From positions 1,426,001 to 1,490,000 of the forward strand of contig NZ_JAAQRC020000001.1 of NCBI RefSeq assembly GCF_019216885.1: 64,000 nucleotides of DNA, given 5' to 3'. The notes under the pieces are model-generated. The model saw only the letters and a list, made by a program, of their open reading frames with translations. It had not been told where the DNA came from and made no database searches. Position 1 is the first letter of the stretch. Each line of letters starts with the position of its first letter. The translations under genes were made by a program, and so were the position numbers. Positions 10,497 through 17,694 of the stretch are shown here, piece by piece. The DNA comes from Methylobacterium sp. SyP6R. GTDB taxonomy: Bacteria > Pseudomonadota > Alphaproteobacteria > Rhizobiales > Beijerinckiaceae.

Positions 10497-12119
10497 ATGG
10501 CGCCGACCCGCCGCTCCACGATCCTCGGCCCCGACGGCCGCCCGGTCGAGATCCCGCTGCTCACCGAGGAATTCGCGCCCACCACCGCCTGGGGCGTGCG
10601 CAGCGTCCACGTCGAGGGCGTCGCCTCCGGCCTCACCCCGGAGCGCCTGGCTGCGATCATGCGCCAAGCCAATATCGGGCAGTCCCGCGCCTACCTCACC
10701 CTCGCGATGGAGATGGAGGAGCGGTACATGCACTACCGCTCGCAGCTCCAGGTGAGGCGGCTCGCCTTCGACACGGTCGATCCGCAGGTGACCACGCCCG
10801 AGGGCGTGGACGCGCGGATCGTCGACGCCGTCACCGAGCTGGTGAACGATCCGGGGTTTCGCGCCGGCTGCTCCGACCTCCAGGACGGCGTCGCCAAGGG
10901 CTACAGCGTCGTCGAGCCGATCTGGGACTATCACCGAGGCATGCTCCGGCCGGTGCGCTACAAGCACCGCGACCCCCGGTTCTTCCAGTTCGACCGGGTC
11001 ACGCTCGAAGACCTGCGGCTTGCCAGCGACACGAACTTCGACGGCGACCCGATCCCGCCGGGCGTGTTCGTCACCCACACGCCGTCGATCCTCTCGGGGT
11101 TGCCCCTGCGCGGCGGGCTGGCGCGCACGGTGGCGTGGGCCTTCATCGTCCAGTCGTTCACGCTCCAGGACTGGAGCGCCTTCGCGGAGATCTACGGCAT
11201 CCCGTTCCGGGTCGGCCGCTACGGGCCCGGGGCGTCGGAGGACGACAAGCGGACCCTGCTCTGGGCGGTGCGCTCGATCGCCAACGACGGCGCCGCGATC
11301 ATGCCCCAGGGCATGAACATGGAATTCCAGGCCGTGCAGGGCAACCACGGCGAGGCTGTGTTCGGGAACCTCTTGGCCTACCTCGACCGCCAGGTGTCGA
11401 AGGTGGTGCTCGGCCAGACCATGACGGCCGACGAGGGATCGAGCCTCGGCCAGGCCAAGATCCACAACGAGGTCCGCATCGACATCAAGCGGGCCGACGG
11501 CCAGCAGACCGCCGGCACGATCAACCGCGACCTGATCCCGTGGTTCGTGGCGATGAACTTCGGCCCGCAGGACGTCTACCCGCAGGTGGATTTCCCGGTC
11601 GCGGAGCCGGAGGACATCAAGGCGATCACCGAGGGGGTGGCGAAGCTGGTGCCGCTCGGCCTGCGCGTGTCGCAGCGCCAGATGCGCGAGAAGCTGGCCT
11701 TGTCCGAACCGGAGAAGGGTGAGGAGCTGCTGGCTGCGCCGCGCGCTGCTGCACCGACGGCCGAGCCGCCTGCCCCAGCGCCGGAACCTGCACCGGGACC
11801 CGCGCCGGCACCGGAAACCCTGTCGCTGCGGCCCGGGCATCCCGGCGGCTGCCGCTGCACGGGCTGCGCTACGGCCCGGCTCGCGGCCGGCGATCCGCAT
11901 CGCGACGCGATCGACGAACTCCAGGACGACCAGCTCCAGGATTGGGAGGCGATCACCGACCCGCTGCTGGAGGGCGTCTTCGCCCTGGCGGCCGGCGCCC
12001 GGAGCTTCGACGACGTGCTGCGCGGGCTCGATCGGCTGCGCATCGACAGCGGCCCCTTGCGCGAGCGCCTGGCGCGGGCGACCGCCATCGCCCGCGGCCT
12101 CGGCGACGTGACCGACTGA
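10497..12119 (+). CDS. Portal protein (Mu gp29-like, DUF935)
   Basis: This 540-residue protein forms the portal ring at the head vertex. Recognisable DUF935 segments include the N-terminal LTPERLAAIMRQANIG, the middle YGIPFRVGRYGPGASEDDKRTL, IMPQGMNMEFQ, and SKVVLGQTMTADEGSSLGQAKIHNEVR cut across about 300-325. The C-terminal 130 residues are Pro/Ala-rich and then helical, with a small CRCTGC motif that could bind metal. The ATG lies 2 bp after the preceding stop. Downstream, a hairpin-rich gap and a methylase separate it from gp30. Confidence 0.92.
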   Translation: MAPTRRSTILGPDGRPVEIPLLTEEFAPTTAWGVRSVHVEGVASGLTPERLAAIMRQANIGQSRAYLTLAMEMEERYMHYRSQLQVRRLAFDTVDPQVTTPEGVDARIVDAVTELVNDPGFRAGCSDLQDGVAKGYSVVEPIWDYHRGMLRPVRYKHRDPRFFQFDRVTLEDLRLASDTNFDGDPIPPGVFVTHTPSILSGLPLRGGLARTVAWAFIVQSFTLQDWSAFAEIYGIPFRVGRYGPGASEDDKRTLLWAVRSIANDGAAIMPQGMNMEFQAVQGNHGEAVFGNLLAYLDRQVSKVVLGQTMTADEGSSLGQAKIHNEVRIDIKRADGQQTAGTINRDLIPWFVAMNFGPQDVYPQVDFPVAEPEDIKAITEGVAKLVPLGLRVSQRQMREKLALSEPEKGEELLAAPRAAAPTAEPPAPAPEPAPGPAPAPETLSLRPGHPGGCRCTGCATARLAAGDPHRDAIDELQDDQLQDWEAITDPLLEGVFALAAGARSFDDVLRGLDRLRIDSGPLRERLARATAIARGLGDVTD

Positions 12120-12198
12120 GGAGCGGAGCGCCCATGGTTCTCCGCATACGCGCCGGCACGGTGCCGACCGTCACGGCAGTCTCGACACGGCTACAGCC

Positions 12199-12355
12199 CC
12201 ACCGGCCTCGCCGGTGGCATCGATCCCCCGGCCTGACAGGCGGGGGTCAGGGTGTTGGAAGCACCCTGAACCGCGAGGTCGCCCCTCGCACGACCGAAGC
12301 CGGCCGGTCATCCGGTCATCCCGCCACCGCTGCTGCGGCGGGGGTAAGGTCCCCC
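12199..12355 (+). other. Array of consecutive GC-rich hairpins before methylase gene
   Basis: At least six inverted repeats are packed in about 160 bp: CCACCGGC/GCCGGTGG (12199-12217, perfect), CCCCC..GGGGG with inner CCT/AGG (12222-12248), TCAGGGTG/TCACCCTGA-type arms (12247-12269, perfect 8 bp), GCGAGG/CCTCGC (12273-12289), CCCGCC/GGCGGG (12320-12342) and GGGGG/CCCCC (12340-12355). The last hides the purine-rich stretch before the ATG at 12362. The frame stays open here, but the peptide it would make (Arg/Pro/Ser-rich) does not look like protein. It may be a structured leader RNA. Confidence 0.6.
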
Positions 12356-12361
12356 CTAACG

Positions 12362-13111
12362 ATGGAAAAGTCTTTTGTGCCGGCCACTCAGGCCGGTGAT
12401 GTTTGGTTGCTTGGTAAACATCGTCTTGTGTGCGGCGACGCGACGAATGCGGAGGATGTTGCCTGTGCCCTCGGCGGCGCCCGCCCAAACCTCATGGTGG
12501 CCGACCCGCCCTATGGCGTGAACTACGAGCCGCAATGGCGCGCCGAGAAAATTGGAGGCGCCCGAGCGATCGGTGCGGTCCTGAACGACGACCGCGCCGA
12601 CTGGACCCAGGCATGGGCGCTCTTCCCGGGCGACGTCGCCTATGTGTGGCACGGCGCATTGTCGGGCTCGATCGTCGAGGGCGGCTTGAAGCGCGCCGGC
12701 TTCAGCATCCGCGGCCAGATCATCTGGGACAAGGGGCGGCTGATCATCAGCCGCGGGCACTATCACTGGCGGCATGAGCCCTGCTGGTATGCCGTGCGGC
12801 GCGGGCGCACCGCGAGCTGGGCTGGTGACCGGTGCCAGACGACCGTCTGGCAGGTGGTCCACCGGCGGTCGCAGAGCGGGCATGGCACCCAGAAGCCGAT
12901 CGAGATCATGCGGCGGCCGATCCTCAACCACACGCAACCGGGAGAGGGCGTGTACGATCCGTTCGTGGGTTCGGGCACGACGCTCATGGCGGCCGAGGAG
13001 ACCGGCCGGGTCTGCTACGCGATCGAGCTGAACCCGGCCTATTGCGATGTGGTGGTGAAGCGTTGGTCGGAGGCGACGGGCCAGCGAGCGCGGCGGGTGC
13101 GGGATGGCTGA
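12362..13111 (+). CDS. Site-specific DNA-methyltransferase (adenine, beta-type order)
   Basis: A 249-residue N6-adenine or N4-cytosine methylase. The catalytic motif IV DPPYG sits at about residue 47 and the SAM-binding motif I DPFVGSGTT near residue 200, so the order is IV before I, as in the beta class. The N-terminus (GDVWLLGKHRLVCGDAT) matches phage methylases that often carry a ParB-like domain in front; that domain is absent here. An upstream ATG at 12134 is in frame but would translate the hairpin array, so 12362 is preferred. It is a moron-like insertion between portal and gp30, and probably protects phage DNA. Confidence 0.85.
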   Translation: MEKSFVPATQAGDVWLLGKHRLVCGDATNAEDVACALGGARPNLMVADPPYGVNYEPQWRAEKIGGARAIGAVLNDDRADWTQAWALFPGDVAYVWHGALSGSIVEGGLKRAGFSIRGQIIWDKGRLIISRGHYHWRHEPCWYAVRRGRTASWAGDRCQTTVWQVVHRRSQSGHGTQKPIEIMRRPILNHTQPGEGVYDPFVGSGTTLMAAEETGRVCYAIELNPAYCDVVVKRWSEATGQRARRVRDG

Positions 13112-17617: not shown

Positions 17618-17694
17618 GGCGGGGTAGCTCAGCCGGGTAGAGCTTGGGCCTCATGAGCCCGTGGTCGCCGGTTCAAATCCGGCCCCCGCAACCA
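17618..17694 (+). tRNA. tRNA with CAT anticodon (Met, or Ile2) inside prophage
   Basis: A full cloverleaf of 77 nt including CCA can be folded: acceptor GGCGGGG/CCCCGCA, U8 A9, D-arm GCTC...GAGC, anticodon stem TGGGC/GCCCG with loop CTCATGA, T-arm GCCGG-TTCAAAT-CCGGC, then A and CCA. Six of seven acceptor pairs form; the first is a G:A mismatch. The 3' half is the same as that of E. coli initiator tRNA from the T-loop on. It lies in the head operon between coding genes, on the coding strand. Confidence 0.9.

Follow-up and report, generated by a model that had tools for sequence, protein, structure and literature searches.

A conserved structured RNA, a probable leader, found upstream of unrelated phage DNA-modification genes

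The hairpin chain between the portal and methylase genes

What is the role of a dense chain of hairpins lying between a phage portal gene and a DNA methylase gene? In the window (the whole stretch of DNA that was analyzed, 64,000 nucleotides), the frame of a Mu-type portal gene (PF06074) ends at 12119, and a chain of GC-rich inverted repeats fills the gap from there to the methylase ATG at 12362. An earlier note had described this chain and its excess of structure over the flanking DNA and had offered three meanings for it: an RNA leader controlling methylase translation, an element for the processing or stability of the head operon mRNA, or the scar of an insertion. The chain is real, as seen in the sequence itself and in its folding, and the hairpin cluster is well above chance and above the adjoining DNA in fold stability. 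The region 12120-12380 folds at -129.5 kcal/mol, compared with -116.1 kcal/mol (SD, 5.3) for dinucleotide shuffles (z = -2.55; 1 of 200 shuffles is equally low). A scan of the plus strand of the whole 64 kb (1,065 segments of 120 nt, step 60, 40 shuffles each) places the segments at 12241 (z = -3.96) and 12181 (z = -3.61) at ranks 10 and 15, in contrast to ranks 867, 919, and 853 for the neighboring segments at 11941, 12001, and 12421. The excess over the flanking DNA is thus borne out, with nine segments elsewhere in the 64 kb having a lower z than that at 12241.

The conserved portion of the chain spans 12225-12342. The perfect hairpin at 12199-12217 is absent, by eye, from the matching place in three other loci (L032 to L034), and the GGGGG of the GGGGG/CCCCC hairpin preceding the ATG overlaps the 3' arm of P4 in the window copy. 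The comparisons described below indicate that the chain is one copy of a widely conserved structured RNA, with hairpins P1 to P3, the linkers GAACC and AYGACC, a possible closing stem P0, and hairpin P4. In the window copy its parts are as follows.

12225..12246, + strand: 5' hairpin P-1, CCCCC 12225-12229 with GGGGG 12242-12246, inner GCCT/AGGC; from the sequence
12239..12325, + strand: conserved core; match to covariance model R1 at 12239-12327, 93.4 bits
12239..12244, + strand: 5' strand of P0, GGCGGG, which can pair with CCCGCC 12320-12325 and close a multi-branch
12248..12268, + strand: hairpin P1, 12248-12254 with 12262-12268; from covariation
12269..12272, + strand: P1-P2 linker AACC (within GAACC), invariant in the 22-sequence alignment A2
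12273..12289, + strand: hairpin P2, 12273-12278 with 12284-12289; from covariation
12290..12296, + strand: linker ACGACCG, AYGACC in most relatives; alignments A2 and A5
12302..12317, + strand: hairpin P3, 12302-12307 with 12312-12317; from covariation
12320..12342, + strand: hairpin P4, CCCG 12320-12323 with CGGG 12339-12342, bulge CCA 12324-12326
12327-12330 with 12335-12338, + strand: inner stem of P4
12362..13111, + strand: N6/N4 DNA methyltransferase, 249 aa (PF01555, 2.2e-20), no ParB domain

The 3' arm of P-1 is the 5' strand of P0, and P4 excludes P0 because both use the strand CCCG. The methylase start codon is 34 nt past the core end and 19 nt past P4. The core is the sole match in its own genome, both by DNA search and by the R1 model, and sits in a Mu-type prophage. 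We note that a tRNA gene (17618-17691, + strand) lies among the prophage genes of the window.

Distribution and covariation of the element

The closest same-genus relatives of the methylase (L003 and L004) have a different gene context and the same hairpin chain just before the ATG; L003 lies beside a small-terminase-like gene (by eye). A linker pattern, GAACC...CGCAYGACCG, matched 92 stretches in viral contigs, among which stem checks sorted true copies from chance; its matches in bacterial contigs, partly inspected, were mostly chance-like and were kept out of the counts. Covariance model R1, built from 17 copies (covariation 0.262 against 0.112 shuffled, reached by 0 of 500 shuffles), was searched against bacterial genomes with stricter filters and with E-values from a short calibration. 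It matches 8 of 199 relatives (the genome itself and 7 congeners), 13 of the 385 genomes from the class, and 19 of the 349 from the phylum, of which 15 lie outside the class; the three sets share this genome and a few others. Overall, covariance-model searches of bacterial genomes and viral contigs yielded at least 91 matches with 82 distinct cores. These derive from 97 rows, from which a weak reverse-strand match in the window (23.5 bits) and five repeats were dropped (L115, L132, L327, and one row each of L337 and L343, whose sites are present under another locus), and identical cores were then merged; 16 later genome loci stand outside the 82. A partly independent scan used the P4 and start region (TCCCGCCACC...CGGG...ATGGAGTC), a pattern that includes the last ten core bases and excludes P1 to P3, and all 24 viral contigs matched carry the core upstream, the weakest (L460) at 28.5 bits.

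The element is not restricted to a single type of phage. A search for the Mu portal family detected that family in 12 of 41 element records and not in the other 29, some of the records being fragments. The head operon reading of the earlier note is therefore less likely, since the element occurs in other gene contexts and in these records without a Mu portal. BLAST of two element copies and one Com protein against annotated phages gave no match, so that the element could be assigned to no named, isolated phage; one element copy searched against plasmids likewise gave none. One locus (L337) has two copies about 670 bp apart (1501-1586 and 2170-2254, - strand), each followed by TTGGAGTCCATACG, which after one of the copies is the start of a com-like open reading frame (ORF).

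The hairpins P1, P2, and P3 are secure from the alignment A5, in which 76 matches form 74 distinct rows. Overall, 94.4% of cells are paired and 19 of 24 pairs have compensatory (two-sided) changes, with a covariation score of 0.337, compared with 0.106 for shuffles (0 of 500 reach it) and 0.035 to 0.064 for slid structures. Every modeled pair of the three hairpins has compensatory changes (P1, 7 of 7, with 97.6% of cells paired; P2, 6 of 6, with 89.9%; P3, 5 of 5, with 91.8%), and the P1-P2 linker is mostly AACC or AGCC. As A5 was fitted to the model structure, these counts are biased towards it, and unaided folds and shuffles serve as the safeguard: RNAalifold recovers the inner P0, P1, P2, and part of P3 from A5, and P0, P1, and P2 from 22 copies, with double changes in 11 of 21 predicted pairs.

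The closing stem P0 is plausible and not proven. Its inner four pairs are kept in 79 of 82 copies with little variation. Pair 2 is an uncompensated A-C in 9 of 82 copies and an A-U in L179, and pair 5 is an A-U in L340. P4 of the expected form is present in 64 of 82 copies, compared with 3.1% when the 3' flanks are mononucleotide shuffled, and was not found in 18; the 82 copies contain 59 distinct 14-nt P4 inner segments. Upstream of the 5' strand of P0, a complement to it of at least 6 (P-1) occurs in 62 of 82 copies, a modest excess over the 48% in shuffles. Fold energies favor P-1 and P4, with mean pairing probabilities of 0.66 for P-1, 0.74 for P4, and 0.09 for P0. The L340 copy (1501-1584, - strand) has joint changes in the P0 and P4 strands (GAG/CTC/GAG) and may help to test a P0/P4 switch; the short ORF that it precedes belongs to no known family.

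Neither of the two outcomes that the earlier note had named as refuting its reading, a lack of covariation or ordinary coding sequence, was seen: the structure covaries strongly, and the region is noncoding in relatives. In the window copy no stop interrupts the frame of the ATG at 12134 before the methylase, which could suggest a coding extension; among the 77 copies with an assigned start, however, 55 have an in-frame stop between the core start and the start codon, and leader length modulo 3 is distributed 31/20/26. The insertion scar is unsupported as stated, because a scar would not covary; the element does appear, though, as a constant cassette before exchangeable genes.

Genes behind the element

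For 77 of the 82 copies a start codon was assignable within an imposed range of 28 to 45 nt from the core, and in 70 of the 77 it is at 32 to 40 nt, a count that precedes the placement by hand of four starts (L036, L197, L429, and L477) at 34 to 39 nt. Two of the five copies with no assigned start (L453 and L463) are near locus ends. By Pfam, the 77 first ORFs include 33 D12 adenine methylases, 22 N6_N4 methylases, 13 Com proteins, and 6 ParB_N proteins, although these families may overlap. Ten first ORFs were checked singly: ParB_N is the sole match in three (in L396 below the Pfam cut-off), Com is matched in two, and five (L446, L340, L405, L334, and L461) have no Pfam family. The start distance is similar whether a D12, N6/N4, Com, or ParB gene follows, and unrelated modification enzymes thus share one leader.

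Where com comes first, the gene behind it also varies. It is Mom (PF25680) in L336 and a Mom-like ORF in L479 and L491 (by eye), a D12 methylase in nine loci (L397, L464, L481 to L483, L485, L488, L489, and L493; tblastn), and a cytosine-type methylase, by motif only, in four (L116, L337, L477, and L484); tblastn with a small protein query set found no modification gene in L328, L340, L344, L453, L486, and L487. At least three kinds of modification enzyme as judged by Pfam, and a fourth by motif, thus use the leader. A protein that begins like a P-loop ATPase also lies behind the element in L388 (12773-13906, with GPSGSGKSS) and, with a similar beginning, in L446 (8245-8868); it comes after com or after an 81-aa ORF of no family, and it may be part of a novel phage DNA-modification module.

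Among the 80 listed loci of close relatives of the window methylase, all of one family and with 6 contig-edge loci left out, the element is present in 5 of 5 with a short N terminus and in 1 of 69 with a long (ParB-type) one; this single exception, L032, looks like chance read-through. We also note that nonhomologous methylases (L003, L177, and relatives) share their first residues (MPEHHSEA-like, by eye) behind the leader, a sign that enzymes were exchanged while the start stayed the same.

In the window, 19 nt lie between the last of the conserved pairs and the start codon, and in other copies the pairs likewise stop short of it (by eye). Shine-Dalgarno pairing of the start regions is not significantly poorer than in control ORFs (P = 0.07). 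As for a possible promoter of its own just 5' of the element, 13 of 81 copies, most of them from one related group, have TANNNT 24 nt ahead of the core. No clear T run follows P4 in the 82 copies (by eye), so the element does not have the form of an intrinsic terminator. GANTC sites cluster at the start codon, often as ATGGAGTC (e.g., L388 at 12452, L459 at 8892, and L338 at 1463, - strand). At loci not chosen by the ATGGAGTC pattern, 23 of 58 have GANTC 24 to 62 nt past the core, compared with 3.7% of random downstream 38-mers, an enrichment among related loci to which conserved first com codons may contribute. GANTC is the CcrM methylation site in Alphaproteobacteria, and Dam methylation at GATC controls mom of phage Mu; if the hosts are Alphaproteobacteria, as is presumed, GANTC at the starts would parallel that control.

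Covarying structure, a consistent gene class, and a consistent distance, which together generally mark a structured cis-regulatory leader, are all present here, and the leader is the best supported of the three options in the earlier note. What stands of it is the structure, the narrow start distance, and the modification or com genes that follow; control of translation is what we infer from these.

Relationship to Com and other explanations

A structured leader is a known kind of element; what appears new is the RNA family itself, together with its use for phage DNA-modification genes that are unrelated. No Rfam 15 family reaches its gathering score in the window or in 19 element-carrying loci, and at relaxed thresholds the matches at the element are far below gathering (Flavi_ISFV_repeat_Ra_Rb at 22 of 50 bits and anti-hemB at 18.4 of 49.5); in 11 further loci nothing matched at the element. 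Searches of the literature gave no description of it, within a reach that excludes a 2017 survey of 224 candidate RNAs. Rfam leaders and riboswitches such as the D12-methyl motif, the SAM types, and the radC motif (RF01754; named in PMC2864571) resemble the element as structured 5' leaders before a gene class, but differ in that none matches it at gathering score.

In 349 genomes the element is directly upstream of com in 13 of 27 com loci (11 at E below 1e-6; two of the 27 are below the Pfam cut-off), and in 10 of the 16 further genome loci the first ORF behind it is com-like (by eye). The com and upstream sequence of two of these loci (L485 and L489) is also seen as L505 and L518, and L492 was not placed. 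Of the 14 com loci that lack the element, seven or eight are preceded by another hairpin-rich leader, similar in layout (by eye; L500, L504, L508 to L510, L520, and L522). This second type, seen also in L523 to L526 from IMG/VR, is marked by a GGTGCNGTAACACC-like hairpin and CCAAC, TGCAAG, and GGCCAAG-like stretches. It too is a hairpin chain directly before com, but its sequence is different and neither R1 nor R2 matches at its place (L523 to L526 were outside the scan). For a candidate closing stem analogous to P0, own pairings average 5.3 bp and crossed ones 4.4 bp. The Mu portal was found in 3 of 3 records with this leader type, some of the records being fragments.

The element could accordingly be a binding site through which Com autoregulates com or the operon. 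According to PMC6483171, Mu Com binds an RNA hairpin in the mom mRNA and activates mom translation, and the translation-inhibition structure lies near the mom start. Com as first gene in 13 of 77 copies and the com-like ORFs above are consistent with such a site, but among the 50 viral records with the element Com (PF10122) was found in the 4 that have it directly behind the element and in 0 of the 46 others (some 30 to 125 kb, many fragments), and no PF10122 match was found in the genome of the window by a search that finds com elsewhere. The Mu com region also lacks such a leader (R1 at best 4.4 bits, R2 no listed match); gin and com are only 94 bases apart there, the end of the annotated late promoter is 8 bases from com, and com has a good Shine-Dalgarno site (by eye). 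We therefore regard a Com site as unlikely, and Com as a necessary partner is made less probable by the same absences. The new element and the Mu system are alike in RNA structure and in translation control of a phage DNA-modification gene (for the new element a predicted control), and com, in L336 also mom, stands behind the element. They differ in that the Mu structure is near the mom start, whereas the new element is 5' of the first gene and leaves the start codon uncovered, and in that com is part of the Mu phage but was not found in this genome or in 46 of the 50 element records, many of them fragments.

A riboswitch for S-adenosylmethionine (SAM) or its product would suit the 33 D12 and 22 N6_N4 methylases among the 77 first genes, which are SAM dependent, and the strand shared by P0 and P4 resembles riboswitch design. 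Mom, however, is not known to use SAM, and as the main reading a SAM riboswitch is made less likely by the com-mom unit of L336, which also carries the element, as do the loci with com and Mom-like ORFs; moreover, no SAM riboswitch family is listed in any Rfam scan of the window or the element loci, relaxed scans included. We consider it improbable. Action as DNA, in a recombination or integration site for exchange of modification genes, has comparably little to commend it: unrelated enzymes with shared first codons behind a similar leader, and records with and without the Mu portal, would agree with it, but the arms vary freely yet stay complementary while the linkers are kept, which is the signature of a folded strand, and this genome has no second copy. 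That the element, being stable, compact, and modular, is processed into a trans-acting small RNA is very improbable, as the narrow start distance and the constant downstream gene class favor action in cis.

We favor, with a probability of roughly 0.6, a 5' leader RNA that acts in cis to control how phage DNA-modification genes are translated, perhaps by way of a P0/P4 switch. The narrow start distances and the constant class of downstream genes argue for translation control in cis, and the strand common to P0 and P4 suggests a two-state RNA; the switch is not proven, because P0 shows little variation and carries an uncompensated mismatch in 9 of 82 copies. In the mechanism that we propose, the mRNA would fold into P1, P2, and P3 joined by conserved single-stranded linkers, and the CCCG strand would pair either back to the 5' side (P0, a closed multi-branch) or forward (P4, about 20 nt before the start). 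A factor of one infection stage would set the choice between P0 and P4, and this would control initiation at the start codon about 37 nt downstream, giving the modification enzyme its proper timing and amount. Among ligands SAM is the first to suggest itself, but it does not suit com-mom units. A host or late phage factor, or the timing of cotranscriptional folding, would fit all of the units as the trigger.

Phages must time DNA modification: if it comes too early, the wrong DNA is marked, and if it comes too late, progeny are exposed to restriction. To our knowledge, Com of phage Mu is the only RNA-level control of phage DNA modification. It is possible, though doubtful, that the element represents a new class of RNA switch that stands before DNA-modification genes whatever their chemistry (adenine or cytosine methylation, or the Mom type), acts without a cognate phage protein, and is older than, or ancestral to, the Com control of Mu. 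The leader probably controls when phages disguise their DNA from host defenses. Shared by nonhomologous modification enzymes, a conserved leader would give phage anti-restriction a general control point at the RNA level, and it offers a ready route to new modification genes, since any gene that follows it is a candidate.
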